From Amycolatopsis sp. 195334CR (GTDB lineage: Bacteria > Actinomycetota > Actinomycetes > Mycobacteriales > Pseudonocardiaceae): a DNA stretch of 64,000 bases. The notes under the pieces were generated by a model that was given only the letters and a program-made list of their open reading frames with translations, made no database searches and was not told the origin of the DNA. Both the position numbers and the translations under genes were made by a program. The stretch is taken from positions 930,001 through 994,000 of the forward strand of contig NZ_JAFJMJ010000002.1 of assembly GCF_017309385.1 (NCBI RefSeq). Reading direction: 5' to 3'. Shown one piece after another: positions 38,456 through 53,873 of the stretch; position 1 is the first letter of the stretch; the number at the start of each line of letters is the position of its first letter.

Positions 38456-39850
38456 TCAGCGCGGGCGGCCGGGAACCCCGGGCCGGGTCTGCCACGGGTG
38501 CGGCCCGTCCAGTGGGCGGTATTCGACGCCCAATGCGTCCAGCCGGGGCAGGTGGGCCTCGGTGAGCCGGGCCGAGAACTCGTCGAAGTCACGCGGGCCG
38601 CTGGACCACACGACCTCGGCGAAAGCGCACAGCCGCGGGAAAACCGCGTAGTCGACCCGCCGCGCGGTGTCCAGGTGCTCGCTCCACACCTGCGCCTGCG
38701 CCCCCAGCACCCGGGGCCGCGCCTCCTCCGGCATCTCCGCCGGATACGGCTCGTAGGCGTAGAAATCCGCCAGCGTGCGCAGGAAACCGACCGGGATCGG
38801 CTCGTCCGGGTGGTCGGCCTGCCGGTGGTCCAGGTACACGTGCTGCTCCGGGCACATCACCACGTCGTGCCCGGCCGAGGCGGCGACCACCCCGGCCTCC
38901 TCACCCCGCCACGAGCCGATGATCGCCGAGGTGGCCGGCTTGCCGTCGAGGATCTCGTCCCAGCCCAGCGCCCGCCGCCCCCGGCTTTCCAGGTGCTCGA
39001 TCATCCGGTCGACGAACCACGCGTGGCGCTCGGTCACCCCCGGCACCTCGTCACCGCCGATGGCGATCACCTCGCTGGGGAAGATCTCCAGCACCGCGTC
39101 CAGCACCTCGCGGTAGAAGTCCACTGTGGACTCCGTGGGGTCGAGCAGGCGCGGGTTGATCCCCCACGAGGTCCACACCTCGACCGGCTCGCCGCCACCC
39201 AGTTCCGGGTAGGCCGCGATGGCCGCCTGCGAATGCCCCGGCACGTCGATCTCCGGCACCACGGTGATCTGCCGCTCGGCCGCGTAGGCGACGATCTCCC
39301 GCAGGTCGTCGGCGGTGTAGAAACCGCCGTGCGGCCGCCCGTCCCGCTCCGGCCCGTCGTGCCTGCCGACCATCGACCCGTGCCGCCAGCCACCGACCGA
39401 GGTCAGCTTCGGGAACCGCGGGATCTCCAGCCGCCAGCCCTGGTCGTCGGTCAGGTGGAAGTGGAGCACGTTCAGCTTGTGCGCGGCGAGCAGGTCGAGG
39501 AACCGCAGCACCTCGGCCTTGGTGCGGAAGTTGCGCGCCACGTCGAGCAGGCAGCCGCGCCAGGCGAACCGCGGGTGGTCGACGACCACGCCGCAGGGCA
39601 CCGGGTCCGGGGTGAACCCGGCGGCGCGGAACGCGGACGGACCGCGCAACTGCTTGAGCGTCTGCATCCCGTAGAACCGCCCGGCCGCGTCGGACGCGCT
39701 CAGCGTGATCGCGTCCGTGGTGATCTCCAGCCGGTAGCCCTCGGCCGGGATGCCCGCGTCCTCGCGGTGCGTCACGGTATCCACAGTGGACACGCCGGTG
39801 CCGGGGGAGACCGAGACCGGCCGGGGGAGCAACCCGTCGAAGCCGGTCAC
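38456..39850 (-). CDS. Beta-N-acetylhexosaminidase, GH20
   Basis: This 464-residue enzyme cleaves terminal GlcNAc from chitooligosaccharides by substrate-assisted catalysis. It has a small N-terminal GH20b domain (1-90) followed by the TIM barrel. The catalytic pair is D267-E268 in AIGGDEVPG; FHLTDDQGWRLEI and VPEIDVPGHSQAAIAAYPE are typical GH20 segments. No signal peptide is present, so it probably acts inside the cell on imported di- and oligosaccharides. GTG 39850 overlaps the permease stop by GTGA. It ends an operon of sugar-binding protein, two permeases and this enzyme, which has a DasR box in front. Confidence 0.93.
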   Translation of the reverse strand: MTGFDGLLPRPVSVSPGTGVSTVDTVTHREDAGIPAEGYRLEITTDAITLSASDAAGRFYGMQTLKQLRGPSAFRAAGFTPDPVPCGVVVDHPRFAWRGCLLDVARNFRTKAEVLRFLDLLAAHKLNVLHFHLTDDQGWRLEIPRFPKLTSVGGWRHGSMVGRHDGPERDGRPHGGFYTADDLREIVAYAAERQITVVPEIDVPGHSQAAIAAYPELGGGEPVEVWTSWGINPRLLDPTESTVDFYREVLDAVLEIFPSEVIAIGGDEVPGVTERHAWFVDRMIEHLESRGRRALGWDEILDGKPATSAIIGSWRGEEAGVVAASAGHDVVMCPEQHVYLDHRQADHPDEPIPVGFLRTLADFYAYEPYPAEMPEEARPRVLGAQAQVWSEHLDTARRVDYAVFPRLCAFAEVVWSSGPRDFDEFSARLTEAHLPRLDALGVEYRPLDGPHPWQTRPGVPGRPR

Positions 39851-40755
39851 CCCTTCACCGCCCCCGCCATGCCCGAGACCAGTTTCCGTTGCACCAGCAG
39901 GAAGAACACCAGCACCGGAATGGTCATCAGCGTCGAACCGGCCATGATCGCGCCCCAATCGTTCTCCTCGGGTTTGAAGAACACCAGGATCCCCAGCGGC
40001 AGCGTCTGGTTGCTGGTGTCGGAGATGATGAACGTCTTGGCGAACAGGAAGTCGTTCCAGGCGTGGATGAACGAGAGCACGCTGGTCGCCACCAGCCCGG
40101 GCGCCACCAGCGGGAACAGGATCTGCCAGGTGAACCGGAACCGGCTGGCACCGTCCACGGTGGCCGCCTCCTCCAGTTCGGCGGGCACCGCGGCGACGAA
40201 GCCCCGCAGCATCCAGATCGCGAACGGCAGGGTGAAGGCCAGGTGCACCAGCACCAGCGAGCCCAGTTCGTTCAGCCCGAACGCGGGCGCCACGTCCCCG
40301 ACCGAGCGCATCAGGAAGAACAGCGGGATGGTCAGCGCCTCGATCGGCACCATCTGCGCCACCAGCAACATCACCAGCAGCACCGTGCGGCCCTTGAAGC
40401 GGAACCGGGTCAGCGCCACCGCGGCCAGGAACGACAGCAGCATCGACAGCGCGACCACCACCACCGCGACGATCACGCTGTTCACGAAGTACCGGCCGAG
40501 CCCGGCCGACCCCAGCACCCGCTCGAAGCTGTCGAAGCTGGGGGAGAAGGTCCACGGGCGCGGGTTCGCCGACTGGATCTCCCCGGCCGGTTTGAGCGCC
40601 GAGAGCACCATCCAGTACAGCGGGAAGGCCACGATCCCGGCCACCACCACGGTGATGATCTCGGCGATCAGCCTGCCCGGCCGCCGCGGCCGCCGCTTCC
40701 GCGGTGCCCGCGCCGGGGTCCGCACCACCGGCGGCGCGGTCGCCGTCGCCGTCAT
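39847..40755 (-). CDS. Carbohydrate ABC transporter permease (MalG type)
   Basis: This 302-residue permease has six membrane helices and the EAA loop VPAELEEAATVDGASRFRF near residue 190. It resembles the second permease of chitobiose/GlcNAc importers such as NgcG. ATG 40755 overlaps the stop of the first permease (ATGA), and its own stop overlaps the GH20 start. No ATPase gene is in the operon, as is usual where MsiK serves several sugar importers. Confidence 0.9.
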   Translation of the reverse strand: MTATATAPPVVRTPARAPRKRRPRRPGRLIAEIITVVVAGIVAFPLYWMVLSALKPAGEIQSANPRPWTFSPSFDSFERVLGSAGLGRYFVNSVIVAVVVVALSMLLSFLAAVALTRFRFKGRTVLLVMLLVAQMVPIEALTIPLFFLMRSVGDVAPAFGLNELGSLVLVHLAFTLPFAIWMLRGFVAAVPAELEEAATVDGASRFRFTWQILFPLVAPGLVATSVLSFIHAWNDFLFAKTFIISDTSNQTLPLGILVFFKPEENDWGAIMAGSTLMTIPVLVFFLLVQRKLVSGMAGAVKG

Positions 40756-41585
40756 AACAGCCCCGCTTCCCGTTTCTGCGACCGGACGTAGAGCGTGGTG
40801 ATCGACAGCAGCAGCAAGGTCATCACCACCCCGATCGCGGCGCCGAGGCCGTAGTCGGCCCCGGCGAAGGCTTCCTGGTAGGCGTAGACGTTGAGCACCA
40901 GGTTCCGCCCGGCCAGCCCGCCCCCGTTGGTCATCACGTAGATCTGGGTGAACACCTTGAAGTCCCAGATGATCGACTGGATGGTGGCGATCATCAGCAC
41001 CGGCCGCAGGATCGGCAGCATCACCGAGGTGGCGATCCGCGTCCACGACGCACCGTCCAAAGTGGCCGCTTCGAGCACCTCCTCCGGGATCGCCTTGATC
41101 CCGGCGTACATGGTGATCAGCACGAACGGGAAGGAGCACCAGATCACCTCGGCGGCGACCAGCCCGAACGCGCTGTAGGTGTCGAAGGTCCACGAGTGCT
41201 TCGCCATCGACTCGAAGCCCAGCCCGGACAGCACCTCGTTGACCAGGCCGAAGTCGGTGTCGAAGAGGAACAGCCAGATGTAGGACCCGGCCAGCGCCGG
41301 CGTCGCCCAGGCGCCGAGCGCGGCGATGAACAACAGCATGCGCGGCAGCGCGCGCACCCGGCTGGCCAGCACCGCGAGCGTGGTGCCGACCAGCAGGCTG
41401 CCGATCACGCACACCCCGGCGAAGCCGATCGTCTTGACCAGCACGGTCCAGAACTGCGCCTCGCCGAGCAGCTTGGTGTAGTTGCCGAAGCCGATGAACT
41501 CCAGCGGTGCCCGCCCGGCCGCCTGCGCCTGGCCGTAGTCGTAGAACGAGATCAGCACCAGCTGGTAGATCGGGTACGCCAGCAC
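40752..41585 (-). CDS. Carbohydrate ABC transporter permease (MalF type), 5' end uncertain
   Basis: The 277-residue frame contains the EAA loop IPEEVLEAATLDGASWTRI and five clear helices. The nominal GTG 41585 cuts into helix 1. The frame continues upstream as AAAIYLLPAAILLLAVLAYP, the real first helix, but meets no start codon before a stop. A correctly placed ATG (41664, seven bases after the lipoprotein stop) is one base out of frame. A single surplus base in the GC-rich 41615-41661 segment would explain this, by sequencing error or true damage. Function as NgcF-like subunit of the chitobiose/GlcNAc importer is inferred from context. Confidence 0.8.
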   Translation of the reverse strand: MLAYPIYQLVLISFYDYGQAQAAGRAPLEFIGFGNYTKLLGEAQFWTVLVKTIGFAGVCVIGSLLVGTTLAVLASRVRALPRMLLFIAALGAWATPALAGSYIWLFLFDTDFGLVNEVLSGLGFESMAKHSWTFDTYSAFGLVAAEVIWCSFPFVLITMYAGIKAIPEEVLEAATLDGASWTRIATSVMLPILRPVLMIATIQSIIWDFKVFTQIYVMTNGGGLAGRNLVLNVYAYQEAFAGADYGLGAAIGVVMTLLLLSITTLYVRSQKREAGLL

Positions 41586-41671
41586 CGCGAGCAGCAGGAT
41601 CGCCGCGGGCAGCAGGTAGATCGCCGCCGCGCGGGGCCGGGACCGGGAGGATCTGCGTCGCCATCGGGCCC

Positions 41672-42967
41672 CTACGAACCGAACGCGTTGTTCATGCGCT
41701 CGCTCGCCCCGGCCAGCGCGCCGTCGATGTTCTGCTCCCCGGTGACGATCTGCTGCACCGCGGTGGGCAGGATCTTCTGGGCGTCGATCTTGGACCAGGC
41801 CGGGGTGGCCGGCACGAACTTGGTGCCCGCGGTCAGCGTGTCCGCGAACGGCTTGAGGAACGGGTCCGTGGTGGCCAGCTGCTGCTGCACGCTGCCGAGC
41901 GTGGGCAGGTTCCCCATCGCGGTGTACATCTTGGCCTGGTACTTGGCGTTGCCCAGGAGCTGGGTGAACTGCACGGCCAGCGTCTTGCGCTTGGTCGCGC
42001 CGAACACGCCGAGCAGGTTGCCGCCGGCGAAGGCGGGCGCGATCGAGCCCGGGTCCTTGCCCGGCAGCGGCACCACCGCGTACTTGTCCTTCATGCCCTC
42101 TTCGACGGCCTTGCGGTTGAAGTCACCGCCGACGGTCATGCCCGCCTTGCCCCCGGAGAAGGCCTGCACGCTCTGCGTCCCGGTGAGGTTGGCGCACTGT
42201 TCCGGCGGGCAGATGTCCGGCTTGATCAGGTCCGCGTAGGCCTGCACGCCCGCCTTGGCCTCACCCGAGGTGAGCGAGGCGGACCAGCGCTCGCCGTCCT
42301 GGCGGGCGATCTCGCCGCCGTTGGCCCACAGGAACGGCAGCATCGCGTAGGTGTACTGGCCGCCGACCGAGATGCCGTAGAGGTCCGGCTTGGCCTGGCG
42401 GATCTTGCGCGCGGTCTCGGTCAGCTCGGCGATCGACTTCGGCGGCTGCAGGCCGAGTTCGGTGAACACGTCGGTCCGGTAGTACAGCGCGCGGATGCCG
42501 GTGAACCACGGCAGGCCGTAGACCTTGCCGTCCACCTTCGCCGTGTCGAGCACGGTCGGCAGCAGGTCGGCGCCCTCGGCCCAGCCCTGGATGTCCGCGG
42601 TGAGGTCGGCGAAGGCGCCGGTCTCGGCGTAGCTGGCGGCGTCGGTGTTGCCGAACTCGGCCACGTCCGGCGCGTTGTTCGGGTCGTTAAAGGCGCCGGA
42701 GAACTTGTCCGCCCGGCCTTCCACGGCGACCCACTGCACCTCGACCTTGACGCCGGGGTGGGCGGCCTCGAACTCGGCGATCGCCTCGTTCACCACGGCT
42801 TCCTTGGGCTGGCGCTTGGCTTCGTCGAACAACCACACGCGCAGGGGGCCGGTCTGCTCGTCGCCGCCTTCGGCCGGACCGCTGGACTGGGTGGGCGCGC
42901 ACGCGGAGGCGGTGAGCCCCGCGGCCAGCGCCACCGCCGCGACCACGCGGCTGAGTCTTCTGTTCAT
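41672..42967 (-). CDS. Sugar ABC transporter substrate-binding lipoprotein
   Basis: This 431-residue extracellular solute-binding protein (SBP_bac_1) has a lipoprotein signal ending LTASAC. The mature part has LRVWLFDEAKRQPKEAVVNE and the YGLPWFTGIRALYYRTDVF hinge region typical of oligosaccharide binders. It opens the operon with two permeases and GH20, so chitobiose, GlcNAc or related chitooligosaccharides are the probable ligands. ATG 42967 has a GGAG site. Inverted-repeat operators and a perfect DasR core lie upstream. Confidence 0.9.
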   Translation of the reverse strand: MNRRLSRVVAAVALAAGLTASACAPTQSSGPAEGGDEQTGPLRVWLFDEAKRQPKEAVVNEAIAEFEAAHPGVKVEVQWVAVEGRADKFSGAFNDPNNAPDVAEFGNTDAASYAETGAFADLTADIQGWAEGADLLPTVLDTAKVDGKVYGLPWFTGIRALYYRTDVFTELGLQPPKSIAELTETARKIRQAKPDLYGISVGGQYTYAMLPFLWANGGEIARQDGERWSASLTSGEAKAGVQAYADLIKPDICPPEQCANLTGTQSVQAFSGGKAGMTVGGDFNRKAVEEGMKDKYAVVPLPGKDPGSIAPAFAGGNLLGVFGATKRKTLAVQFTQLLGNAKYQAKMYTAMGNLPTLGSVQQQLATTDPFLKPFADTLTAGTKFVPATPAWSKIDAQKILPTAVQQIVTGEQNIDGALAGASERMNNAFGS

Positions 42968-42976
42968 CAAGCACTC

Positions 42977-43016
42977 CGTTGCACTATTCGCAATGGGCGT
43001 TTCGCTATTAGCAACG
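42977..43016 (-). promoter_or_regulatory. Paired TTGC/GCAA operators before the sugar-binding gene
   Basis: TTGCACTATTCGCAA (42979-42993) and TTTCGCTATTAGCAA (43000-43014) are two similar half-symmetric sites, with CGTTGC and GCAACG at the outer ends. They lie just upstream of the lipoprotein start and would bind a LacI-, ROK- or GntR-type regulator besides DasR. Confidence 0.45.
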
Positions 43017-43044
43017 AATCGTAGAACTGTGCCCCCGCCCACAC

Positions 43045-43060
43045 AAGGGTCTAGACCACC
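43045..43060. promoter_or_regulatory. DasR-responsive element (dre)
   Basis: AAGGGTCTAGACCACC contains the perfect palindromic core GGTCTAGACC of the DasR consensus A-C-TGGTCTAGACCA. It lies 78-93 bases upstream of the sugar-binding lipoprotein start. The amino-sugar operon behind it is the kind of target known for DasR. Binding is inferred from the sequence match. Confidence 0.7.
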
Positions 43061-43068
43061 CGGGGATT

Positions 43069-43121
43069 GCTATGAGTGGGGCATTACTAGCGTTCAATGC
43101 AAGTAATGCCCCACTCATAGC
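43069..43121 (-). terminator. Perfect 20-bp hairpin after the lactonase gene
   Basis: GCTATGAGTGGGGCATTACT (43069-43088) pairs exactly with 43102-43121 around a 13-base loop. It starts seven bases beyond the lactonase stop and would terminate the minus-strand operon that begins at 48609. Its sequence differs from the GTGGCTTTC repeats. Confidence 0.7.
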
Positions 43122-43127
43122 GTTCAG

Positions 43128-44255
43128 TTACCGGAAGAGCACGAAGGCGATGTGGTTGACCGCGAGCGAGCCCGCCGGTTTACCGAGCAGGCCGGTCGCC
43201 GGGTCGCGCGGCAGCCAGGTCACCGTGTTCGAGCGCTGGTTCGCCACGTAGACCCACCGCTCCGACGGGTCGAGGGTGAAGTGCCGCGGCCAGGCACCAC
43301 CGGTGGTGGCGTTCTCGCCGAGCCGCTTGATCTCCGCGCCACCCGCGCCGACGCCGAAGGTGGCGATGGTGTCCTCACCGCGGTTCGAGGCGTAGACGAA
43401 CCGGCCGTCCCGCGAGATGGCGATCTCCGCCGGGTACTGGGGGACCGGCGCGGTCGAGGGCACCGTCGGCACCACGGCCCCGGCGGTGAGCTTGCCCGCG
43501 TTCGCGTCCCACGCGGCGACGGTGATCTCCGCGCGCAGTTCACCGAGCACGTAGGCGTACTTGCCGTTGGGGTGGAACACCAGGTGCCGCGGCCCGGCCC
43601 CGGACGGCAGCTTGAGCTGCTGGTTCAGCTTGAGCTTGCCGGTGCCGAGGTCCAGTTTGTACACGTAGACCGAGTCGGTGCCCAGGTCGACCGCGACCAC
43701 CCACTTGCCGCTGGGATCGGTCACCACCTGGTGCGCGTGTGCTTCGCGTTCCCCGCCGCTGTGCTTGACCACGTCGGTCGGCGGACCCGCCTTGCCACCG
43801 CTCTGGATGGGCAGCACGGACACCGTGCCGTCGGTGTAGTTGGCGGTCAGCACGAACTTCCCGCTGGGATGCACCGACAGGTGCGTGGTGCCCGCGCCGC
43901 CGACCGACTGGCTGCCCAGCACCTTCGGCGGGTTCGCCGCGCTCAGCGTGGTCACCTGCCCGTCCGGCACCAGCTCGTTGGTCGAGTACAGCTTGTCCTT
44001 CGACACCGCCAGCCACGAGGCGTCGGGCACCCCGGGCACGGTCGCGCCCAGCTTCAGCGCGGGACCGCTGCCCCGCGTGGCCACCTGCAGGCCGACGCCC
44101 GGCGGCTGGCCCCAGGTGGTGTAACTGCCGAGGTAGACCACGCACCCCGCCCTTTCCGTGCTCGCGGCCGCGCGGCCGGTGAGCATGCCGGTCACGCCGA
44201 CGGCGCCTGCCGCGCCGACGGCCCCCAGGAACTTCCGGCGATCGAACCCCACCAT
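43128..44255 (-). CDS. Secreted lactonase, seven-bladed beta-propeller (Pgl family)
   Basis: This 375-residue protein has a twin-arginine signal (DRRKFLGAVGAAGAVGV), so it is exported folded. The rest is a lactonase-type beta-propeller with repeated blades (THLSVHPSGKFVLTANY, HQVVTDPSGKWVVAV, RHLVFHPNGKYAYVLGE, AEIAISRDGRFVYASNR). Relatives hydrolyse sugar lactones such as 6-phosphogluconolactone. A secreted form could open GlcNAc- or gluconolactones outside the cell. It is the last gene of the operon with GntP permease, deacetylase and PLP lyase, consistent with supplying an aldonic acid to GntP. Confidence 0.82.
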   Translation of the reverse strand: MVGFDRRKFLGAVGAAGAVGVTGMLTGRAAASTERAGCVVYLGSYTTWGQPPGVGLQVATRGSGPALKLGATVPGVPDASWLAVSKDKLYSTNELVPDGQVTTLSAANPPKVLGSQSVGGAGTTHLSVHPSGKFVLTANYTDGTVSVLPIQSGGKAGPPTDVVKHSGGEREAHAHQVVTDPSGKWVVAVDLGTDSVYVYKLDLGTGKLKLNQQLKLPSGAGPRHLVFHPNGKYAYVLGELRAEITVAAWDANAGKLTAGAVVPTVPSTAPVPQYPAEIAISRDGRFVYASNRGEDTIATFGVGAGGAEIKRLGENATTGGAWPRHFTLDPSERWVYVANQRSNTVTWLPRDPATGLLGKPAGSLAVNHIAFVLFR

Positions 44256-44307
44256 CCATCCACTCCTTTTGTTGTGTGAATCGTTGTGGCGGCTTTTGGG
44301 TACTGCG

Positions 44308-45705
44308 TCAGACGAACGCCATGATCAGTGCGGCAACGGCGAAACCGGCGACCGAGAGCACGGTTTCCAGCACTGTCCACGTTTTCAGGGTGTCGGCCAC
44401 CGAGATGCCGAAGTAGCGCGAGACGATCCAGAACCCGCCGTCGTTGACGTGCGAGGCGATGATCGAACCGGCCGCGATGGCCACCACCAGCAGGGCCAGC
44501 TGCACCTGCGAGTAACCGAGTTCGGTGACCGTCGGCGCGATGATGCCGCTGGTGGTCACGATCGCCACGGTGGCCGAGCCCTGGGCGATCCGCATCCCGC
44601 AGCTGATCACGTACGCGGCCAGGATCACCGGCAGCCCGGCGCTGTCCAGCGAACCGGCGACGGCCTTGCCGATGCCGGTGGCCGAGAGCACCGCGCCGAA
44701 GAACGCACCGGCGCCGACCACCAGCAGGATCATCGCCACCGGCCGCAGCGCGGTGGCCGAGAGCTCGCTCAGCTGCTTGCCGGTCATCCCGCGCCGGGTG
44801 CCGAGCAGCCAGGAGGCCAGCAGCACCGCGATGGTCAGCGCCACCGCGGGTGTGCCGATGAACGCGGCGATGCCGGACAGCGTGGTCGAGTCCTTGGGCA
44901 GCCAGATGCTGCCGAACGTGCCGACCAGGATCAGCACCAGCGGGACCGCGATGATGAACGCGACCAGGCCGAGCGACGGCGGGTTCTCGTGCTCGTCGTC
45001 GCCGTTCTCCACCAGCATTTCCTCGGGTACCGGCAGCACGATCTTCTTGCCGATCCACGAGGAGTACAGGACACCGCCGATGAACCAGGCGGGCAGCCCG
45101 CAGATCGCGCCCATCAGGATGACCCAGCCGAGGTCCACGCCGAGCAGCCCGGCCGCGGCCACCGGACCGGGGTGCGGCGGCAGGAAGGCGTGCGTCACCG
45201 AGAGCCCGGCGAGCAGCGGCATGCAGTACAGGATGATCGACTTGCCGCCCTGCTTGGCGGCCACGTAGACCAGCGGCGCCAGCACGAAGATGCCGATGTC
45301 GAAGAACACCGGGATGCCGAAGATCAGCCCGGCCACGCCCATCGCCAGCGGGGCGCGCTTCTCGCCGAAGGCCCGCAGCAGGGTCGCGGTCAGCACCCGC
45401 GCGCCACCGGACTTCTCCAGGATGGCGCCGAGCAGCGTGCCCAGCCCGATGATCGCCGCGATGTGCCCGAGGATGCCGCCGAAACCCTTTTCCAGCAGCG
45501 AATCCGAGGCCTTCTGCGCGGACCCGACCAGGGTGCCCACCGGCACGCCCGCGGCCAGCGCGGTGAGCAGGCCCACCACGATCAACGCGATGAACGGCTC
45601 GAGCTTGAGCTTGATGATCGACAGCAGCAGTACCGCGATGGAGAGCGCGGCGAGGGTGAGCAGGCCGGCCGTGGAGTGCTGCAGCCAGTCGATGAATCCG
45701 GTCAT
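44308..45705 (-). CDS. GntP-family sugar-acid permease
   Basis: This 465-residue membrane transporter of the gluconate:H+ symporter family has some 12-14 helices and the conserved HAFLPPHPGPVAAAGLLGVD segment. Other family marks are FFDIGIFVLAPLVY and the C-terminal IIASHVNDGGFWIVSRYFG. GntP members import gluconate and related aldonic acids or D-serine. In this operon the probable substrate is an amino-sugar acid (GlcNAc-1-oic or glucosaminic acid), or else a D-amino acid. ATG 45705 overlaps the stop of the deacetylase gene by four bases. Confidence 0.9.
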   Translation of the reverse strand: MTGFIDWLQHSTAGLLTLAALSIAVLLLSIIKLKLEPFIALIVVGLLTALAAGVPVGTLVGSAQKASDSLLEKGFGGILGHIAAIIGLGTLLGAILEKSGGARVLTATLLRAFGEKRAPLAMGVAGLIFGIPVFFDIGIFVLAPLVYVAAKQGGKSIILYCMPLLAGLSVTHAFLPPHPGPVAAAGLLGVDLGWVILMGAICGLPAWFIGGVLYSSWIGKKIVLPVPEEMLVENGDDEHENPPSLGLVAFIIAVPLVLILVGTFGSIWLPKDSTTLSGIAAFIGTPAVALTIAVLLASWLLGTRRGMTGKQLSELSATALRPVAMILLVVGAGAFFGAVLSATGIGKAVAGSLDSAGLPVILAAYVISCGMRIAQGSATVAIVTTSGIIAPTVTELGYSQVQLALLVVAIAAGSIIASHVNDGGFWIVSRYFGISVADTLKTWTVLETVLSVAGFAVAALIMAFV

Positions 45706-47300
45706 GTGGTCGTGCTTTCTCGCTTGCGGAGTGAATGCCCGGCGAGCGCGCCGGTGGCGCGGCCGTCGTCGATGGCGGCGACCCCGTTGACGAAGACGTA
45801 CGGGATGCCGTCCGCCCGCTGCCGGGGTTCGTCGAAGGTGGCGGTGTCGGCGACCGCGTCGGGGTCGAACAGCACCAGGTCCGCCGCGTGCCCTTCGCGC
45901 ACCAGACCGCGATCGGCCAGGCGCAGGCGCTTCGCCGCGCGCCCGGTGAGGTGCGCGACGCAGTCGGCGAGGTCCAGCACGCCCAGTTCGCGGACGTACC
46001 TGGCGAGGTAGCGGGGGAAGGTCCCCCAGGCCCGCGGGTGCGGGCGCGCGCCGACGAGCAGCCCGTCGCTGCCGCCGGTGTGCGTGACGTGCCGCATGAT
46101 CGCCTGCACGTTCTCCTCGTGCCCGACGTGCATCAGGCAGGAGGTGCCGAGGCGTTCGGAGATCAGCACGTCGAAGTACAGCTCGGCGGTCGGGCGCCCG
46201 GCGCGGCGCGCGGACTCGGCCACGCTGTGCCCGACCAGGTGCGCGTTGTCGGGGTTGCGCACGCCGTTGATCTCGATGGCCTCCCAGTCGATCGGCACGC
46301 CGTGGGCGCCGTCCGAACCGGTCTCCTCGATCTCGACGCGGATCCGCTCGCGGGTGCCCGGGTCGGCCAGCCGGTTCAGCGTCGCCTCCAGGCCGCCTTC
46401 GGCCGACCAGCTCGGCAGCAGCGCGGACAGGTAGGTGGCGCCCGGCAGGTAGGGGTAGGTGTCGAGCGAGATGTCGCAGCCGTCGGCGAGCGCGTCGTCC
46501 AGCAGCGCCAGCAACTCCGGCGCGCGGCCCTTGTTCACCGAGAAGTTCATCGTGGCGTGCGCGAGGTGCAGCGGGCAGCCCGAGCGCCGCGACACGTCGA
46601 CCATCTCGGCGAACGCCTCCAGCGCACCGGCGCCGTAGCTGCGGTGGTGCGGGCTGTAGTACCCGCCGTGCCGCCCGACCACGGCGCACAGGTCCACCAG
46701 TTCCTCGGTGCTCGCGTACATGCCCGGGGTGTAGGTCAGCCCCGAGGACATGCCGACCGCGCCCTCGTCCAGCCCGGTGACCAGCAGTTCGCGCATCCGG
46801 TTCAGCTCGTCCTCGGTGGCCGGGCGGTCGTCGAAGCCGACCGCCAGCATGCGCACCGAGCCCTGCGGGATCAGGTACGCCGCGTTCACCGCGATGCCCC
46901 GGTCCAGCCGGTCGAGGTACTCGCCGACCGAGCGCCAGTTCCAGTCGAAGCCGGGCGGGTCGTCGTTCCACCCGGCGAGCTGGGCGCGCAGGGCGGCCAG
47001 CGTCGCGTCGTCGACCGGGGCGTAGGACAGCCCGTCCTGCCCGAGCACCTCGGTGGTCACGCCCTGGGACACCTTGGCGAGGTGGTCCGGTTCGGCCAGC
47101 ACCTGGATGTCGGAATGGGAGTGCATGTCGATGAACCCTGGCGAGAGCACCAGTCCGGTGGCGTCGATCCTCCGGCCGCCGCTGAGCGAACCGGGCGCGC
47201 CGATCGCCGCGACGCGGCCGCCGTCGATCCCCACGTCACCGGTTTCGAGTGGTGCGCCGGTGCCGTCGGCGATCCGCGCGCCGCTGATCACGAGGTCCAT
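45702..47300 (-). CDS. N-acyl-D-amino acid deacylase family amidohydrolase
   Basis: This 532-residue metal-dependent amidohydrolase has the first metal ligands H60 and H62 in DMHSHSD and the ELVDLCAVVGRHGGYYSPHH segment, with further histidines in CPLHLAHATM. The C-terminal RLADRGLVREGHAADLVLFD closes the composite beta-domain. The family removes acyl groups from N-acyl-D-amino acids. In the context of GntP, a PLP lyase, a KDG-type kinase and GlcNAc uptake genes, deacetylation of N-acetyl-D-glucosaminate is a good alternative. The gap to the upstream PLP gene is 10 bases. Confidence 0.85.
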   Translation of the reverse strand: MDLVISGARIADGTGAPLETGDVGIDGGRVAAIGAPGSLSGGRRIDATGLVLSPGFIDMHSHSDIQVLAEPDHLAKVSQGVTTEVLGQDGLSYAPVDDATLAALRAQLAGWNDDPPGFDWNWRSVGEYLDRLDRGIAVNAAYLIPQGSVRMLAVGFDDRPATEDELNRMRELLVTGLDEGAVGMSSGLTYTPGMYASTEELVDLCAVVGRHGGYYSPHHRSYGAGALEAFAEMVDVSRRSGCPLHLAHATMNFSVNKGRAPELLALLDDALADGCDISLDTYPYLPGATYLSALLPSWSAEGGLEATLNRLADPGTRERIRVEIEETGSDGAHGVPIDWEAIEINGVRNPDNAHLVGHSVAESARRAGRPTAELYFDVLISERLGTSCLMHVGHEENVQAIMRHVTHTGGSDGLLVGARPHPRAWGTFPRYLARYVRELGVLDLADCVAHLTGRAAKRLRLADRGLVREGHAADLVLFDPDAVADTATFDEPRQRADGIPYVFVNGVAAIDDGRATGALAGHSLRKRESTTT

Positions 47301-47310
47301 GTGCGGCCCC

Positions 47311-48609
47311 TTAGAAGTAGGTGCGGACGAAGTCGACGACCGTGCGGCCGTCGGCGTCCACGACGGGGAGGAGCGGCCATTTGTCGAACACCGTGCACGG
47401 GTGCGAGAGCCCGAACCCGATCCAGTCGCCGACCGCGACCGGGGAACCGGGCGGCAGCGCGAGAAAGGTGTGCTGGTCGTTCATCGCGGTGACGGTGTGC
47501 CCGGTCAGCGCGTCCACCCGGTCGTCGGGGCCGCGGCGGAGCTGGGGCTCGGGCAGTCCTTCGTCGAAGGAGGCGTCGCGCTTGCCCATGGTGAGCAGCG
47601 CCAGTTCGCTCGACGGCTTCGAGGTCACCTGGGCCCAGGCGCGCAACGCGGACCGGAACGGCTCGGCGCCGGTGGTGCGCGGGTGCTCGCCCAGCGGGGA
47701 GATGCCGCGGTAGAAGCCGTCGTCGTGGGTCAGGTAGGCGCCGCTGCGCAACACCGGGCGAACCTTGATCCCGGCCGGCCAGCCGGTGGTGATGCCCTCG
47801 GCGACCTGGTCGAAGTAGGCGCTGCCGCCCGCGGTCACGATGATCTCGTCGACGTCGGCGAACAGCCCGCGTCCGTGCAGGTCCACCGCCAGCTCGCGCA
47901 GGTCGTCCACATAGGACTTCACCCGGGCCTGGCTGGCTTCGCTGGCGTCGTGCGCCAGCGCGCCCTCGTACCCGGCGACCCCGGCCAGGCGCAGCGCCGG
48001 GCTGGCGTGCACGGCCTCGGCCACGGCGATCGCGGTGGCGCGGTCGCGCGCGCCGGTGCGGCCGCCGTCGGCGCCCAGCTCCACCAGCACGTCCACCGGC
48101 CGCGTCCCGTTGAGTGCGGCGCTCATCTGCGCCACCCCGGCGGTCGAATCGGCCCAGCAGGTGAACTCGAACGCCGGGTCGGCGTCCAGTTCGGCGGCCA
48201 GCCAGGCCAGCGCGGCCGGGTCCACCAGCTGGTTGGCCAGCAGCACCCGCGAGACGCCGAACGCGCGGTAGACCCGCAGCTGGCCGGCGTTCGCCGCGGT
48301 GATGCCCCACGCGCCGTGCTCGATCTGGCGGGCGAACAACGCGGGTGCCATCGTGGTTTTCCCGTGCGGTGCCAGTTCCACGCCGTGCCCGGCGCACCAG
48401 GTGGCCATCTCGCGCAGGTTGTGCGCGAGCGCGTCCTCCGCCAGCACCACGACCGGGCCGAGGAAGCCGTCGGTGAACAGGTCCGGTTTGGCCGCCGCGG
48501 CGTCACCGATCCGGCGGCCGGACAACGCGGCCGGGATCGACTTGAATCGCCAGTCGACGGTCTCGTTCCGGGCGCTCCCGAGTGCGGCCTCGTTGATCTC
48601 GCAGCTCAC
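47311..48609 (-). CDS. Fold-type III PLP amino acid deaminase/ammonia-lyase (D-serine dehydratase-like)
   Basis: This 432-residue enzyme has an alanine-racemase-like barrel followed by a D-serine-dehydratase-like beta-domain. The PLP lysine is K84 in LAPHGKTTM, and LVELGADGGRTGARD and ITAGGSAYFD lie in the phosphate-binding region. The metal-site region near the end reads MNDQHTFL with a later cysteine in SHPCTVFDKW. Such enzymes eliminate ammonia from D-serine, D-threonine or related 2-amino-3-hydroxy acids. D-glucosaminate (giving 2-keto-3-deoxygluconate) is a fitting substrate here. RidA across the divergent promoter would handle enamine products. The GTG start opens the minus-strand operon. 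Confidence 0.82.
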   Translation of the reverse strand: MSCEINEAALGSARNETVDWRFKSIPAALSGRRIGDAAAAKPDLFTDGFLGPVVVLAEDALAHNLREMATWCAGHGVELAPHGKTTMAPALFARQIEHGAWGITAANAGQLRVYRAFGVSRVLLANQLVDPAALAWLAAELDADPAFEFTCWADSTAGVAQMSAALNGTRPVDVLVELGADGGRTGARDRATAIAVAEAVHASPALRLAGVAGYEGALAHDASEASQARVKSYVDDLRELAVDLHGRGLFADVDEIIVTAGGSAYFDQVAEGITTGWPAGIKVRPVLRSGAYLTHDDGFYRGISPLGEHPRTTGAEPFRSALRAWAQVTSKPSSELALLTMGKRDASFDEGLPEPQLRRGPDDRVDALTGHTVTAMNDQHTFLALPPGSPVAVGDWIGFGLSHPCTVFDKWPLLPVVDADGRTVVDFVRTYF

Positions 48610-48624
48610 CAGTCAGCCTCCAAG

Positions 48625-48664
48625 CGTTGCATATGTTGCAACGGGCGTTGCGCATATTGCGTGG
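48625..48664. promoter_or_regulatory. Twin operator in the divergent promoter (IclR target candidate)
   Basis: CGTTGCATATGTTGCAACG (48625-48643) is an inverted repeat with 7-bp arms. GCGTTGCGCATATTGCGTGG (48645-48664) repeats the pattern. They lie between the PLP lyase and kinase starts, so one regulator, probably the IclR protein encoded at 49704, could control both operons. Confidence 0.6.
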
Positions 48665-48723
48665 CATAGGTGTAGCATCCGGGTCGCCACTGGTCAACGG
48701 CGAGAAAACGCGGGGAGTCGGGT

Positions 48724-49707
48724 TTGTCCAACCTGCCGGAAGTGCTCTGCATCGGCGAGTCGATGGCGCTTTTTGTCCCTGGTGAAGCCGGGCCACCGCA
48801 CCACGTGCGGACCTGGCAGCGCACGATCGGCGGCGCGGAGTCCAATGTGGCCTGCCACCTCGCCGCACTCGGCCTGCGCAGCCGCTGGGCCAGCGCGGTC
48901 GGCGACGACCCGTTCGGGCGCGCGCTGCTGGAGGAGATCGCGGCCGCGGGCGTGGACGTCGGTGGCGCGGTCGTCGACCCGGCGCGGCCGACCGGGCTGT
49001 ACGTCAAGGAGAGCAGTTCCGGCGGCAGCCCGGTGCGCTACTACCGGACCGGTTCGGCGGCCTCGGCGATGGGCCCGGACCTGCTGGCGGGCCTCGACCT
49101 CGGCGCGGTCGGGGTGATCCACCTGAGCGGGATCACCCCGGCGCTGTCGGCCACCTGCGCCGCGCTCGTGCGCGAGGTGCTGGCCCTGCCGCGGGCGGGC
49201 ACGCGCGTCTCGTTCGACCTGAACTACCGCCCGAAGCTCTGGTCCGGCCGCGACCCCGGCGCCGAACTGGCCGCGCTCGCGCGCCAGGCCGACATCGTGC
49301 TCGCGGGCGACGACGAGGCCGAAATCGTCTGGGGGAGCGGGGATCCCGGGGTGCTGCGCAAGCGCCTGCCGGAACCGGAGACCCTGGTGATCAAGCACGG
49401 CGCGCGTGGCGCCACCCTGCTCGAAGGCGATCGCGAACCGGTGTTCGCGCCCGCGCTGGCGGTGGACGTGGTCGAGCCGGTCGGCGCCGGTGACGCCTTC
49501 GCCGCCGGGTTCCTCGCCGCCACCCTGCGCGGGGAGGACCCGCTGACCCGGCTGCGCTCCGGCCACCTCCAGGCGGCCTCTACGCTGCGCACGCACGACG
49601 ACGTGGGGCCGCCGCTGCCCCGCGACGTGGTCGCCGGCCTGCTCACCGCCGACGAGCGGACCTGGGCGGCGACCCGGCTGACCGACGAGGGAGTGGTGCG
49701 CGCATGA
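48724..49707 (+). CDS. PfkB-family sugar kinase (2-keto-3-deoxygluconate kinase type)
   Basis: This 327-residue ribokinase-fold enzyme has the N-terminal signature region IGGAESNVACHLAALG and the catalytic anion-hole motif PVGAGDAFAAGFLAA. The chain SFDLNYRPKLW is typical of KDG and fructokinase-like members. It would phosphorylate 2-keto-3-deoxygluconate with ATP to KDPG, which fits the divergent operon producing KDG from glucosaminate. TTG 48724 is the start. The stop overlaps the IclR start by four bases (ATGA). Confidence 0.87.
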   Translation: MSNLPEVLCIGESMALFVPGEAGPPHHVRTWQRTIGGAESNVACHLAALGLRSRWASAVGDDPFGRALLEEIAAAGVDVGGAVVDPARPTGLYVKESSSGGSPVRYYRTGSAASAMGPDLLAGLDLGAVGVIHLSGITPALSATCAALVREVLALPRAGTRVSFDLNYRPKLWSGRDPGAELAALARQADIVLAGDDEAEIVWGSGDPGVLRKRLPEPETLVIKHGARGATLLEGDREPVFAPALAVDVVEPVGAGDAFAAGFLAATLRGEDPLTRLRSGHLQAASTLRTHDDVGPPLPRDVVAGLLTADERTWAATRLTDEGVVRA

Positions 49708-50465
49708 GCCAGAGCCTGGACCGGGCGCTCACCCTGCTGGCCGGGATGGCCAAGGAGCACAAGACCCTCGACCAGCTCGCCGAGGAGGTCGGCGTGCACA
49801 AGTCGACCGTGCTGCGGTTGCTGCGCACGCTGGAGCAGCACCACTTCGTCCGCCGCGACGGCACGCGGTACTACCGGCTCGGCACCGCGTTGTTCGACCT
49901 GGCCAACCAGGCGCTGGAGGGCTACGACGTCCGCCGCGCCGCGCAGCCCGCGCTGTCCGCGCTCAACGCGCGCACCGGGCACACCGTGCACCTGGCCAGC
50001 TACGACGACGGCGAGGTGGTCTACATCGACAAGTACGAGGGCCGTCATTCGGTGCGGATGTACTCGCGCGTGGGCAAACGCGCGCCGCTGCACTGCACCG
50101 CGGTGGGCAAGGTGCTGGTCGCCTCGTTCCCCAGGGACCGGCGGCATGAGGTGGCTCACCGCATCGACTACGTGCGGATGACCGCGAATACGATTTCCTC
50201 GGCGGCCGGTTACCTGGCCGAACTGGAGCAGGTCGAACGCCGCGGGTACGCGGTCGACAACGCCGAGCACGAGGACTTCATCCACTGCATCGCCGCGCCG
50301 GTGCGCGGTGCGGGCGGCGAGGTGCTGGCCGCGGCCAGCCTGTCGGTGCCCAAGGTGCTGCTGGACTACGAAGGACTGCTCGCGCTGGTACCGGACCTGG
50401 TCTCGGCCGCCGAGGATGCGTCCATCCACAGTGGATGGACGGGAGCGAGGAACACGGAAGGATGA
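49704..50465 (+). CDS. IclR-family transcriptional regulator
   Basis: This 253-residue regulator has an N-terminal winged HTH (LDQLAEEVGVHKSTVLRLLR, then HHFVRRDGTRYYRLG) and an IclR effector domain (GHTVHLASYDDGEVVYIDKY, KRAPLHCTAVGKVLVA, and the HCIAAPV segment). It is coupled to the kinase gene upstream and followed by RidA. The twin palindromes at 48625-48664 are its likely operators, with a sugar-acid intermediate as probable effector. Confidence 0.92.
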   Translation: MSQSLDRALTLLAGMAKEHKTLDQLAEEVGVHKSTVLRLLRTLEQHHFVRRDGTRYYRLGTALFDLANQALEGYDVRRAAQPALSALNARTGHTVHLASYDDGEVVYIDKYEGRHSVRMYSRVGKRAPLHCTAVGKVLVASFPRDRRHEVAHRIDYVRMTANTISSAAGYLAELEQVERRGYAVDNAEHEDFIHCIAAPVRGAGGEVLAAASLSVPKVLLDYEGLLALVPDLVSAAEDASIHSGWTGARNTEG

Positions 50466-50470
50466 GGCAC

Positions 50471-50857
50471 ATGGGCAAGGTCGCGATCAGCACGGAGAAC
50501 GCCCCCACGCCGGTGGCGAACTTCGCGCAGGCCGTTCGGAAGGGGAACATCCTGCAGCTGGCCGGCCAGGTCGCCTTCGAACCCGGGACGAACAAGATCG
50601 TCGGGGATTCGGTCGGCGAGCAGACCCGGCAGACGTTCAAGAACCTCACCGCCGTGCTGGAGGCGGCCGGGGCGAGCTGGGACGACGTGGTGATGACGCG
50701 GGCGTACCTGACCGACACCGCGCACTTCGCGGAGTTCAACGAGACCTACAACGAACTCATCGGCGAACCCGCCTTCCCGGCCCGCACCACGGTCTACGTG
50801 GGCCTGCCGGCCGGCCTGCTGGTCGAAATCGACCTGCTCGCCGTCATCGGCGACTGA
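50471..50857 (+). CDS. RidA family protein (enamine/imine deaminase)
   Basis: This 128-residue RidA/YjgF protein would hydrolyse reactive 2-aminoacrylate-type enamines released by PLP lyases. The conserved GNILQLAGQVAFEPGTNKIV, the arginine of MTRAYLTD, and FPARTTVYVGLPAGLLVEID (with the catalytic-loop arginine and final glutamate) are present. ATG 50471 has a GGAAGG site nine bases upstream. ATG 50462, which overlaps the IclR stop, is an alternative. Its place in the operon matches the divergent D-serine-dehydratase-like enzyme. Confidence 0.9.
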   Translation: MGKVAISTENAPTPVANFAQAVRKGNILQLAGQVAFEPGTNKIVGDSVGEQTRQTFKNLTAVLEAAGASWDDVVMTRAYLTDTAHFAEFNETYNELIGEPAFPARTTVYVGLPAGLLVEIDLLAVIGD

Positions 50858-50866
50858 GCCAACGTT

Positions 50867-50943
50867 GTGAATGTGGCTTTCACTGCACGTCCCGCAGTGA
50901 AAGCCACATTCACTGCATGTCACGCTGTGAAGGCCACATTCAC
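50867..50943. repeat. GTGAATGTGGCTTTCAC repeat cluster, also terminator
   Basis: A 20-bp arm (50867-50886, GTGAATGTGGCTTTCACTGC) pairs perfectly with 50894-50913 around a 7-base loop. A third, inverted copy with one change (GCTGTGAAGGCCACATTCAC) follows at 50924-50943. The stop codon of the convergent acdS gene lies inside this third copy. The hairpin sits 10 bases after the RidA stop and could end both transcripts. Confidence 0.75.
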
Positions 50944-51938
50944 GGCAGTTCGCTGTACGCGCTCAAAGCGGGCTGCCCGCCCAGGTGCGCGTACAGCACC
51001 TTCGAGTCCTTGGGGATTTCGCCGCGGGCGACCAGATCGATCAGGCCCGCCATCGACTTGCCCTCGTACACCGGGTCGGTGATCATCCCCTCCAGCCGCC
51101 CCGCCGTGCGCATGGCGTCCACAGTGGACTCGTCCGGCACGCCGTAGATCCCGGCGTGGTACCGCTCGTCGAGGATCACCTCGGCCGGTTCGCGCGGGGT
51201 GCCGATCAGCGAGGCGGTCGCCTTCGCGATCCGGTCCACCTGCGCCCGGGTTTCGGCGGGCTTCGCCGAAGCGTCGATGCCGATGATCCGGCGCGGCCGC
51301 TCGCCCAGCGCGGCGCCGGCGATCATGCCCGCCTGCGTGCTGCCGGTCACCGAGCAGACCACGATCGTGTCGAAGTGCACGCCCAGTTCCCGTTCCTGCG
51401 CCTCGACTTCGACCATCCAGTTCGCGAACCCGAGCCCGCCGAGCCGGTGGTCCGACGCCCCGGCCGGGATGGCGTACGGCTTGCCGCCGCCCGCCTCGAT
51501 CTCGGCGATCGCCCGTTCCCAGCTCTCCTTGAACCCGATGCCGAACCCGGCGTCGACCAGCCGGACGTCCGCGCCCATCAGCCGCGAGAGCTGGATGTTG
51601 CCCACCCGGTCGTACCCCGGGTCCTTCCAGTCGACCCAGCTTTCCTGCACCAGCACGGCTTTCAGCCCGGTGCGCGCGGCGGCCGCGGCCACCTGCCTGG
51701 TGTGGTTGGACTGCACCCCGCCGATCGAGAGCAGCGTGTCGGCCCCCGTCGCGAGCGCGTCGGCGACCAGGTACTCCAGCTTGCGCGTCTTGTTGCCGCC
51801 GTAGGCGAGGCCGGAGTTGACGTCCTCGCGCTTGGCCCAGATCTCGGCGCCGCCGAGGTGCGCGGTGAGCCGGTCGAGCCGGTGCACCGGCGACGGGCCG
51901 AACAGCAGCGGGTGGCGGGGGAACGAGTCGAGGGACAT
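50940..51938 (-). CDS. acdS: 1-aminocyclopropane-1-carboxylate deaminase
   Basis: This 332-residue fold-type II PLP enzyme converts ACC to 2-oxobutyrate and ammonia. The PLP lysine is K50 in [12 protein letters not shown]. The two residues that separate true ACC deaminases from D-cysteine desulfhydrases are present: Glu in DPVYEGKS (E292) and Leu in YAHLGG (L319), equivalent to E295 and L322 of the Pseudomonas enzyme. Plant-associated bacteria use it to lower plant ethylene. Its start overlaps the stop of the upstream GntR regulator by one base. The last codon lies in a dispersed repeat. Confidence 0.92.
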
Positions 51939-52597
51939 CAGCTTTCCTCTCCGGCGGCCATCAGGTCGCCGAGTTCGGCCCAGATGCGGCCGGTGATCCG
52001 GGTGGCTTCGGCGGTGTCACCGGCCGCGCAGGCTTCGATGAGCTGTTCGTGCCGCCGGACCGACCGGTGCGCGGGCAGGCTCGCGAACCGCGCGCGTTCG
52101 AGGCGGCGCAGCAGGGGGGTGTAGCGGTCGAGCGTCTCGGCCACCGCGCGGTTCCCGCAGGCTTCGACCGGGACCTCGTGGAACTCGTCGTCCGCCTCGA
52201 TCGCCGCGTCGACCTCACGGGCTTCGATGGCGGCGGCGAACTTCGCGTTGGCCGCGCGCATCCGGTCCAGGTGCGCGGGGCCGAGCCGGGCGGTCCGCAC
52301 GGCGAACTCGTGCAGCGCCCTGGTGAGTTCGAGCGCGTCGCGCACGTCGTCGCTTTCCAGCGGCGCGACCCTGGTGAAGCTCTGCGGCTTCGACTCGACG
52401 AGCCCTTCGGCGGTCAGCCTGGTCAGCGCCTGCCGCACCGGTGCGCGGGAGAGACCCAGCTCGGCGGCCAGGTCGTGCTCGCGCAACTGCTGCCCGGGCG
52501 CCAGCTCCCCGACGATGATCGCGCGCCGCAGGAGCTCATACGCCTCATCGCGCAGCAATACCCGGCGAACCGGCTTCAGGTTGCTCACATCTAACAT
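51938..52597 (-). CDS. GntR-family regulator (FCD domain), probable acdS regulator
   Basis: This 219-residue regulator has an N-terminal GntR winged helix ([20 protein letters not shown], then [20 protein letters not shown]) and an FCD ligand domain with metal-binding-type histidines ([23 protein letters not shown]). It is directly coupled to acdS, so ACC deaminase expression is probably its target, although most proteobacterial acdS genes use Lrp-type AcdR. The first ATG (52597) lies within a palindrome; GTG 52588 ([14 protein letters not shown]) is a plausible alternative start. Confidence 0.88.
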
Positions 52598-53020: not shown

Positions 53021-53200
53021 GTCTGGTACCCTTCCACGAGCGACCAGCCCCTGAGTGATCGGGGGCGGCAAGTGGAGCCCCGCTCCCACCCGCGTCGCCG
53101 CTCGAGGCGGCCGGGTCCGGTCTCGCGAAACGGTGTGACCCTGTTCGGTCATAGCCGTCGCGAAGGCAGCCGACCACGTGTCGGCGGCCGATCGGACGAG

Positions 53201-53237
53201 GGCCCCGCGGCCGCATGCAGATGCGGAAGCCGGGGCC
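53201..53237 (+). ncRNA. Structured infC leader hairpin
   Basis: GGCCCCG (53201-53207) pairs with CGGGGCC (53231-53237), and inside it CCGCAT-GCAG-ATGCGG (53211-53226) forms a second perfect stem; TTTGG follows. It lies 64 bases before the infC start in the 280-base leader. Its shape and place suggest an attenuator, such as the L20- or IF3-responsive leaders of other bacteria. No peptide gene is evident in the leader. Confidence 0.5.
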
Positions 53238-53300
53238 TTTGGTATGTGGGCACCAGGTCGAACGAGCAGAGCAGAACATTACTCGGACCAAGGAGGCCCC

Positions 53301-53873
53301 ATCAGCTCCGAGACGCGCATCAACGAGCGCATCCGCGTTCCCGAGGTCCGGCTGGTCGGACCCAACGGGGAGCAGGTCGGCATCGTCCGCATAGAGGACG
53401 CACTCCGGCTCGCCCAGGAAGCGGACCTGGACCTCGTCGAGGTCGCCCCGCAGGCACGACCGCCGGTCGCCAAGCTCATGGACTTCGGCAAGTTCAAGTA
53501 CGAGAGCGCCCAGAAGGCCCGCGAGTCGCGCCGCAACCAGCAGCTGACCGTCATCAAAGAGCAGAAGCTGCGCCCGAAGATCGACCAGCACGACTACGAG
53601 ACGAAGAAGGGCCACGTGTCCCGCTTCCTCGCGGCTGGTAACAAGGTCAAGGTCACGATCATGTTCCGTGGCCGGGAGCAGTCCAGGCCGGAGCTCGGCT
53701 TCCGCCTGCTGCAGAAGCTGGCCGACGACGTCCAGGAGCTCGGCTTCGTGGAGTCCTCGCCCAAGCAGGACGGCCGCAACATGATCATGGTGCTGGCGCC
53801 GCACAAGAACGTGAAGCCGCAGAAGGCGCAGGCGAAGGCCAAGGAAGCCGAAGCCGAAGCCGCGGATTCCTGA
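53301..53873 (+). CDS. infC: Translation initiation factor IF-3, AUC start
   Basis: The 190-residue IF-3 binds the 30S subunit and checks initiator tRNA and start codon. The N-domain ([20 protein letters not shown]), linker, and C-domain ([30 protein letters not shown]) are complete, with an acidic alanine/lysine-rich tail. The family N-terminus [11 protein letters not shown] begins at ATC 53301, four bases after a strong AAGGAGG. No ATG, GTG or TTG fits, as the next upstream start (53178) would include the leader. A rare AUC or AUU start on infC is a known autoregulatory device because IF-3 discriminates against such codons. infC leads the operon with rpmI and rplT. Confidence 0.93.

Follow-up and report, generated by a model that had tools for sequence, protein, structure and literature searches.

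Which compound is broken down by a gene cluster whose members, taken one at a time, resemble genes of D-amino acid metabolism, and which lies beside a sugar importer and a hexosaminidase? The question is raised by a 64,000-nucleotide stretch of Amycolatopsis sp. 195334CR (the window; contig NZ_JAFJMJ010000002.1, positions 930,001 to 994,000), for which an initial annotation had proposed a pathway for N-acetylglucosaminic acid (GlcNAc1A), the C1-oxidised end sugar of chitin. The genes it named, i.e. a GH20 hexosaminidase, a sugar importer, a lactonase, a GntP permease, an amidohydrolase (the deacylase), a pyridoxal phosphate (PLP) lyase, a PfkB kinase, an IclR regulator and a RidA protein, are all present at approximately the positions it gave (Table 1). 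We consider the cluster to be an IclR-linked regulon for GlcNAc1A with a probability of about 0.8. This reading is well supported by context, namely a gene fusion, an aldolase, an operator and lytic polysaccharide monooxygenases (LPMOs), and not by enzyme residues. The observed basis is gene content, conservation, the gene fusion, operator sites and phylogeny, from which we infer the individual reactions, their substrate and inducer, the binding of IclR and which way the transporters work.

Gene content, conservation and a deacylase-hexosaminidase fusion

The PLP lyase gene is the first of a catabolic operon running PLP lyase-deacylase-GntP-lactonase on the minus strand (48609 to 43128), in which the deacylase and GntP genes overlap by 4 bp. 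The PfkB, IclR and RidA genes diverge from it on the plus strand (48724 to 50857), leaving a gap of 114 bp between the lyase and kinase genes. An importer operon (42967 to 38456) comprises the genes for a solute-binding protein (SBP), two permeases and the GH20 enzyme, the last overlapping the permease 2 gene at GTGA. A 53-bp palindrome lies between the two operons.

In the proposed route LPMOs and chitinases would release oxidised chito-oligosaccharides, the secreted-type lactonase might open the lactone form, free GlcNAc1A would be brought in by GntP and oxidised chitobiose perhaps by the ABC importer, and the cytoplasmic GH20 would split the latter into GlcNAc and GlcNAc1A. The amidohydrolase would then take acetate off GlcNAc1A, the PLP lyase would take off ammonia to give 2-keto-3-deoxygluconate (KDG), the PfkB kinase would convert KDG to 2-keto-3-deoxy-6-phosphogluconate (KDPG), and an aldolase, encoded elsewhere in the source genome and within the operon in some relatives, would yield pyruvate and glyceraldehyde-3-phosphate; the role of the lactonase and the induction of the cluster are presumed. 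The GntP permease exceeds the cut-off of the gluconate:H+ symporter model TIGR00791 (395.2 bits, cut-off 292.75). The best Protein Data Bank (PDB) match of the kinase is the KDG kinase 1V19 (153 bits), and its score falls below every NCBIfam KDG kinase cut-off. The lactonase carries a Tat-type RRKFLG at its N-terminus (by eye), its second-best solved relative being the periplasmic gluconolactonase PpgL (6IGB, 124 bits), and no signal peptide is visible by eye in GH20, whose start was set by eye. The models closest to the IclR protein, both below cut-off, are KdgR (173 bits, cut-off 275) and BhcR (166 bits, cut-off 350). The KDPG aldolase genes described below and the solved relatives of the kinase and lactonase fit a conversion of 2-amino-2-deoxygluconate via KDG to KDPG and not plain D-amino-acid breakdown.

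A search with the deacylase gave at least 503 confirmed stretches, of which the 80 best were taken as named actinomycete loci with flanks of up to 10 kb. Neighbours were counted by tblastn (E ≤ 1e-15, at least 35% of the query), the counts being lower bounds given short flanks and some contigs that end early. Homologues of the PLP lyase (73/80), RidA (72/80), IclR (71/80), kinase (60/80) and GntP (57/80) were found near the deacylase, followed by the lactonase (36/80), SBP and permease 1 (33/80 each), permease 2 (30/80) and GH20 (29/80). The gene grouping around the deacylase is not chance, since these neighbours recur across the 80 named loci. The closest deacylase match is an Amycolatopsis magusensis protein (96% identity), and three loci belong by name to Streptomyces (L080, L081 and L085 in our numbering). 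The deacylase occurs (E ≤ 1e-150) in 33 of 196 genomes of the class, 18 of them from one genus (g21), apparently Streptomyces; the four g21 loci fetched carry kinase, IclR, RidA, PLP lyase and deacylase genes together with the same operator as described below (31.7-44.1 bits). Two Actinoalloteichus loci (L073 and L077) have deacylase, lactonase, importer and GH20 genes, with no PLP lyase or kinase match within the fetched stretch.

The deacylase and GH20 are joined in one chain in genome G091, where a stop-free open frame of 1103 amino acids (L121:6542-9853, minus strand) contains Amidohydro_3 at residues 83-549 and GH20 at 582-684 and 692-1027, and its deacylase part retains the GQDG and HATMN stretches of the actinomycete clade (by eye). 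A database search for this fusion returned 257 proteins; both PF07969 and PF00728 were present in 120 of the 120 matches listed, and among these nearly all proteins with an organism name were from Microbacterium. The G091 fusion gene has as neighbours PLP lyase and RidA genes, two ROK-family genes and a glucosamine-6-phosphate isomerase-family gene. Because hexosaminidase and deacylase share one chain, the fusion points to an amino sugar as the deacylase substrate, which raises confidence in the GlcNAc1A reading and lowers that in D-amino acids.

Seven of the 80 loci (L025, L031, L039, L068-L070 and L072), namely four of the five Kribbella loci and those of Actinosynnema, Herbihabitans and Thermocrispum, have a KDPG aldolase gene next after that for the deacylase, as do Arthrobacter, Tsukamurella and genome G102. 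The initial annotation had suggested looking for both such an aldolase and LPMO genes elsewhere in the source genome (9.93 Mb, seven contigs), and both are there: a KDPG aldolase gene at C3 overlaps a dihydroxy-acid/6-phosphogluconate dehydratase-family gene, the two probably being edd-eda, and six matches to the LPMO family AA10 exceed the cut-off. AA10 was found in 28 of the 33 deacylase-bearing genomes vs 29 of 163 others, an association that comes largely from one genus (g21, 18/33), so that the count by genus (7/11 vs 16/71, p = 0.009) is the fairer one, with deeper kinship unaccounted for.

Operator sites and the DasR-type box

The lyase/kinase intergenic region holds a conserved operator (operator 1), a feature absent from the initial annotation, with the repeat core GCAA..GTTGC..GCAA, which could be aligned at ≥17 of 27 positions in 57 of 59 PLP/kinase intergenic regions, the window's among them; the regions of L064 and L069 (16/27) were excluded from the column counts. 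A matrix was built from 36 different sites, identical ones having been merged. Operator 2, in front of the importer operon and not a training site, scored 24.7 and 22.4 bits on its two strands, and the reversed matrix reached at most 11.8 bits over 83 sequences. A second operator (>12 bits) lies downstream of the deacylase in 13 of the 33 loci with an SBP or GH20 gene vs 0/33 for the reversed matrix, these loci being from three Amycolatopsis, Qaidamihabitans, Actinosynnema, four Actinokineospora and four Saccharopolyspora. The SBP match begins 16-108 bases past it in all nine SBP-type loci, and in the four Actinokineospora loci, where GH20 is the next gene found after the lactonase, GH20 begins 96-192 bases past it. 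Loci of the A. orientalis group lack a second operator and have, directly upstream of the lactonase match, a DasR-like box instead, which suggests another operon layout there.

A relaxed operator pattern, written post hoc after the second site was known, has two exact matches in the whole source genome, both in the cluster. With up to one mismatch there are five, i.e. the two exact ones, one other in the window and two elsewhere, against none in the reversed control. No operator was found within 1.5 kb of the six LPMO or two aldolase-family loci (best score 0.2); an intact TGGTCTAGACCA core is close by at LPMO loci L003 and L006.

The DasR box that the initial annotation had ascribed to the importer is present, as a candidate and imperfect site. 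A search with the DasR-type box (dre) consensus taken from the available part of PMC4398421 gave a single match in the window, with three mismatches to ACTGGTCTAGACCACT, one variant of the consensus, and an intact core GGTCTAGACCA; 0.13 matches are expected by chance and 11 of 100 shuffles also held at least one. The das system of Streptomyces comprises DasR-controlled chitobiose importers. The importer here resembles it in its SBP and two permeases, with no ATPase gene alongside, and in a putative DasR-type box, and differs in having a second operator that it shares with the sugar-acid operon.

The palindrome between the operons is REP- or MITE-like (i.e. resembling repetitive extragenic palindromes or miniature inverted-repeat transposable elements) and is possibly a terminator. 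With up to one mismatch allowed, the 17-base arm is matched 68 times in forward and 69 times in reverse orientation across the source genome (reversed control, 0), all eight different copies read have a 13-base loop, and the predicted folding energy is -41 kcal/mol (z -9.65); its 10-base core was absent from 82 loci of relatives.

Table 1. Features of the cluster, in window coordinates.
Feature	Position	Strand	Basis or remark
GH20 beta-N-acetylhexosaminidase, predicted cytoplasmic	38456..39850	-	PF00728, 329.6 bits
ABC permease 2	39847..40755	-	PF00528
ABC permease 1, start uncertain	40752..41665	-	Open reading frame; homologues adjoin SBP in relatives
SBP of sugar ABC importer	41672..42967	-	PF13416, 137.9 bits; start placed after operator 2
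Operator 2, overlapping sites on both strands	42978..43015	-	Directly upstream of SBP start codon
DasR-type box (dre)	43045..43060	+	Consensus search; core GGTCTAGACCA
53-bp palindrome between catabolic and importer operons	43069..43121	.	Dispersed repeat
Lactonase, 7-bladed beta-propeller, predicted secreted aldonolactone opener	43128..44255	-	PF10282, 310.8 bits
GntP-family permease, predicted GlcNAc1A importer	44308..45705	-	PF02447, 433.6 bits
D-aminoacylase-type amidohydrolase (deacylase), predicted GlcNAc1A deacetylase, own clade	45702..47300	-	PF07969
Fold-type III PLP lyase, predicted D-glucosaminate (GlcN1A) ammonia-lyase giving KDG	47311..48609	-	PF14031 and PF01168
Operator 1, YGCAAYnnnnGTTGCRnnATnYGCAAY	48626..48652	-	Directly downstream of promoter; exact match in source genome
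Promoter facing PLP operon, TTGACC-17-TACACC (by eye)	48669..48697	-	Same layout in relatives' intergenic regions
PfkB kinase, predicted KDG kinase	48724..49707	+	PF00294
IclR regulator, predicted binder of both operators	49704..50465	+	PF01614 and PF09339
RidA-family protein	50435..50857	+	PF01042; TIGR00004, 112.3 bits (cut-off 106.25)

Beyond the cluster, 50940-52597 holds two adjoining genes that were identified by eye, one ACC-deaminase-like and one for a GntR-type regulator, each being found in 18 of the 80 loci. A gene at 53178-53873 appears by eye to encode translation initiation factor IF-3, and as its homologue is near the cluster in 47 of the 80 loci, the cluster often occupies one chromosomal place.

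Comparison with characterised deacylases and lyases

The steps of a GlcNAc1A pathway have been demonstrated in Pseudoalteromonas prydzensis (Jiang et al. 2022, PMC9537276), whose deacetylase and lyase are OngB and OngC, and the parts of that paper available report it from Gammaproteobacteria and one Betaproteobacterium. The substrate residues of OngB are named in the accessible text of PMC12017989 (Wang et al. 2025; PDB 9KB1, 9KB3), and we compared 83 actinomycete deacylase rows at these positions, using OngB numbering. Y194, H222, H252, D368 and R379 are kept in 83/83 rows, and H68 and H70 in each of the 82 rows that have a residue at those positions. The deacylase is 32% identical to OngB of P. 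shioyasakiensis, and its AlphaFold model (pLDDT 90.1) has the D-aminoacylase fold, with fold scores tied between OngB and D-aminoacylases.

Several results weigh against the GlcNAc1A reading. In sequence the deacylase scores higher with the D-aminoacylase AfDam (1M7J, 294 bits) than with PpOngB (9KB1, 229 bits). The OngB metal ligand Cys97 is Asp in 82 rows (one gap); of the mapped residues with which OngB binds the sugar hydroxyls, Glu226 is Tyr (83/83), Ser290 is Gly (81/83) and Ser292 is Thr (83/83); and Lys254 is Thr (75/83). On the side of regulation, the second operator was not found in 20 of the 33 loci having an SBP or GH20 gene, and a pre-set operator pattern with up to three mismatches was not specific (four matches genome-wide vs six in the reversed control), only its top two matches, both at this cluster, standing out. 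A KDPG aldolase was not seen in the fetched stretch of 73 of the 80 loci, and five of the 33 deacylase-bearing genomes, among them the fusion-bearing G091, have no AA10 match; judging from those five, LPMOs of the same cell are not always at hand.

Among the replaced residues, Lys254 binds the alpha-carboxylate in OngB and D-aminoacylases, and it is Lys in 17 of 18 rows from outside the actinomycete clade. Ala256 is Asn in 80 of the 83 actinomycete rows. Most D-aminoacylase rows likewise have Glu at position 226, so that only Ser292 and Gln298 are named in PMC12017989 as setting OngB apart, Gln298, in the insertion, being unmapped in the alignment. Given these replacements, the deacylase is, at the positions compared, neither OngB-like nor a standard D-aminoacylase. 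The 50-row tree agrees with neither placement raised in the initial annotation: OngB falls in a group (99/93) with AfDam, BbDam, Pantoea and Comamonad proteins, and the actinomycete deacylases form a clade (100/100) placed elsewhere, outside the AfDam/BbDam group. Grouping of the deacylase with OngB was rejected by the approximately unbiased (AU) test (p = 9.8e-5). The Klebsiella pneumoniae protein 9G5M, entered in the PDB under the name N-acyl-D-amino-acid deacylase, has SSS where OngB has Ser290-292, and may for that reason be a GlcNAc1A deacetylase.

The PLP lyase is 36% identical to P. shioyasakiensis OngC and matches PDB 3GWQ with 279 bits. Its alignment of 32 rows keeps HGKT and Cys405 of SHPC in 32/32 and His403 in 31/32. 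In the PLP tree the OngC rows join 3GWQ (97/99). Holding OngC with the actinomycete PLP rows was rejected (AU p = 0.00135) after a very long partial Azospirillum row (42% of columns) had been dropped and the tree rebuilt with 32 rows. On Comamonadaceae plasmids (L099 and L100) PLP lyase, RpiR regulator and D-aminoacylase genes are ordered as in the ong cluster L094 and adjoin a dipeptide-type ABC transporter, an arrangement that may show what the ong genes descended from.

Overall, the cluster resembles the ong cluster of P. prydzensis, as far as it is described in the text available, in its GH20, D-aminoacylase-like deacetylase, PLP lyase, sugar kinase and RidA genes and in the genomic LPMO. 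It differs in having GntP where the ong cluster has the SSS transporter OngIT (a comparison of cluster genes, SSS genes elsewhere in the genome being unsearched), an IclR regulator in place of the RpiR-type OngR, an added lactonase and ABC importer, a GH20 without signal peptide, and a deacylase and lyase from other clades. The GH20, kinase and RidA proteins are 35%, 26% and 30% identical to their P. shioyasakiensis partners. The screen described in PMC9537276 used at least four co-occurring genes, >30% identity and E below 1e-5; four genes here lie above these values (31.7, 35.8, 30.5 and 34.8%), but with P. shioyasakiensis as the reference and not strain ACAM 620. The replaced OngB residues, the AU tests and the other transporter and regulator families argue against identity with the marine pathway. 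Most probably the cluster is a variant of the ong pathway that actinomycetes, Streptomyces included, assembled separately, and its deacylase and lyase were probably recruited separately from OngB and OngC.

Alternative readings and their consequences

The initial annotation is partly supported. Its pathway logic is backed by context, through the fusion, the KDPG aldolase of relatives, the operator common to both operons, the LPMOs and the genomic aldolase; the comparison that it proposed as a refuting test gives a mixed outcome, the deacylase neither grouping with OngB and keeping its mapped sugar-binding residues nor falling inside the AfDam/BbDam group. Were the cluster one for N-acyl-D-amino acids, the amidohydrolase would free a D-amino acid and the PLP enzyme would dehydrate D-serine or D-threonine, the kinase, permease and GH20 being unrelated neighbours. 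Database names and nearest solved relatives of the deacylase are indeed D-aminoacylases, its OngB-type residues are replaced, and a distant relative has RidA and PLP genes and a dipeptide-type transporter as its neighbours; Streptomyces coelicolor Sco4986 is reportedly active on hydrophobic N-acetyl-D-amino acids, a report that our literature search did not return. Fold and catalytic core are like those of AfDam (1M7J) and BbDam (3GIP), but the Cys metal ligand and carboxylate Lys of these enzymes are Asp and Thr here, and the gene context is sugar-type. With the carboxylate Lys lost, the deacylase fused to GH20, an operator common to the importer and GH20, and a KDG-type kinase, KDPG aldolase and GntP permease that have no role in such catabolism, we regard D-amino acids as a quite improbable substrate.

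Slightly less improbable, although still unlikely, is the same route acting on another 2-acetamido-2-deoxy-aldonic acid such as N-acetylgalactosaminic acid, or on aldonic acids made by sugar oxidases and not LPMOs. GH20 enzymes can act on GalNAc too, the pocket residues are unlike those of OngB and some clusters lie in genomes without an AA10 match; against this stand the cluster's links to LPMO-bearing genomes, to an importer that has a putative DasR-type box and to the GlcNAc-type genes in G091. That two unrelated operons are adjacent by accident is scarcely credible: most of the 80 loci lack the importer operon, as the GH20 count indicates, and the palindrome separates the operons in the window, but the operator is common to both operons in several genera, GH20 follows the lactonase in Actinokineospora, and deacylase and GH20 are fused in Microbacterium.

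For the GlcNAc1A reading, no actinomycete version of the pathway, nor any account there of how oxidised chain ends are used, was found among the open-access papers that our searches listed. The main texts of PMC9537276 and PMC12017989 contain no occurrence of Actinobacteria and Streptomyces, and of 'Actino' and 'Streptomyces', respectively, and the part available of an Aeromonas paper (PMC11653859) states that the route could not be confirmed there. In the accessible text of a Streptomyces venezuelae chitin paper (PMC12370203) LPMO-type genes are induced on chitin, and aminoacylase, oxidized, oxidised, gluconate and deaminase do not occur.

On balance we lean towards the view that GlcNAc1A catabolism arose at least twice. 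Actinomycetes would have used other deacylase and PLP branches, with a pocket that binds the sugar acid without the mapped OngB residues or the usual carboxylate Lys, the IclR protein would also control a DasR-type importer, Microbacterium would have fused the deacetylase to the hexosaminidase, and the trait would be widespread, Streptomyces included, under D-aminoacylase names. If this is true, a large set of proteins now annotated as N-acyl-D-amino-acid deacylases will have to be renamed, and two different sets of parts have led to the same metabolic logic. Actinomycetes with LPMOs play an important part in degrading chitin in soil, and the operator-controlled promoter would then be usable as a reporter of oxidative attack on chitin.

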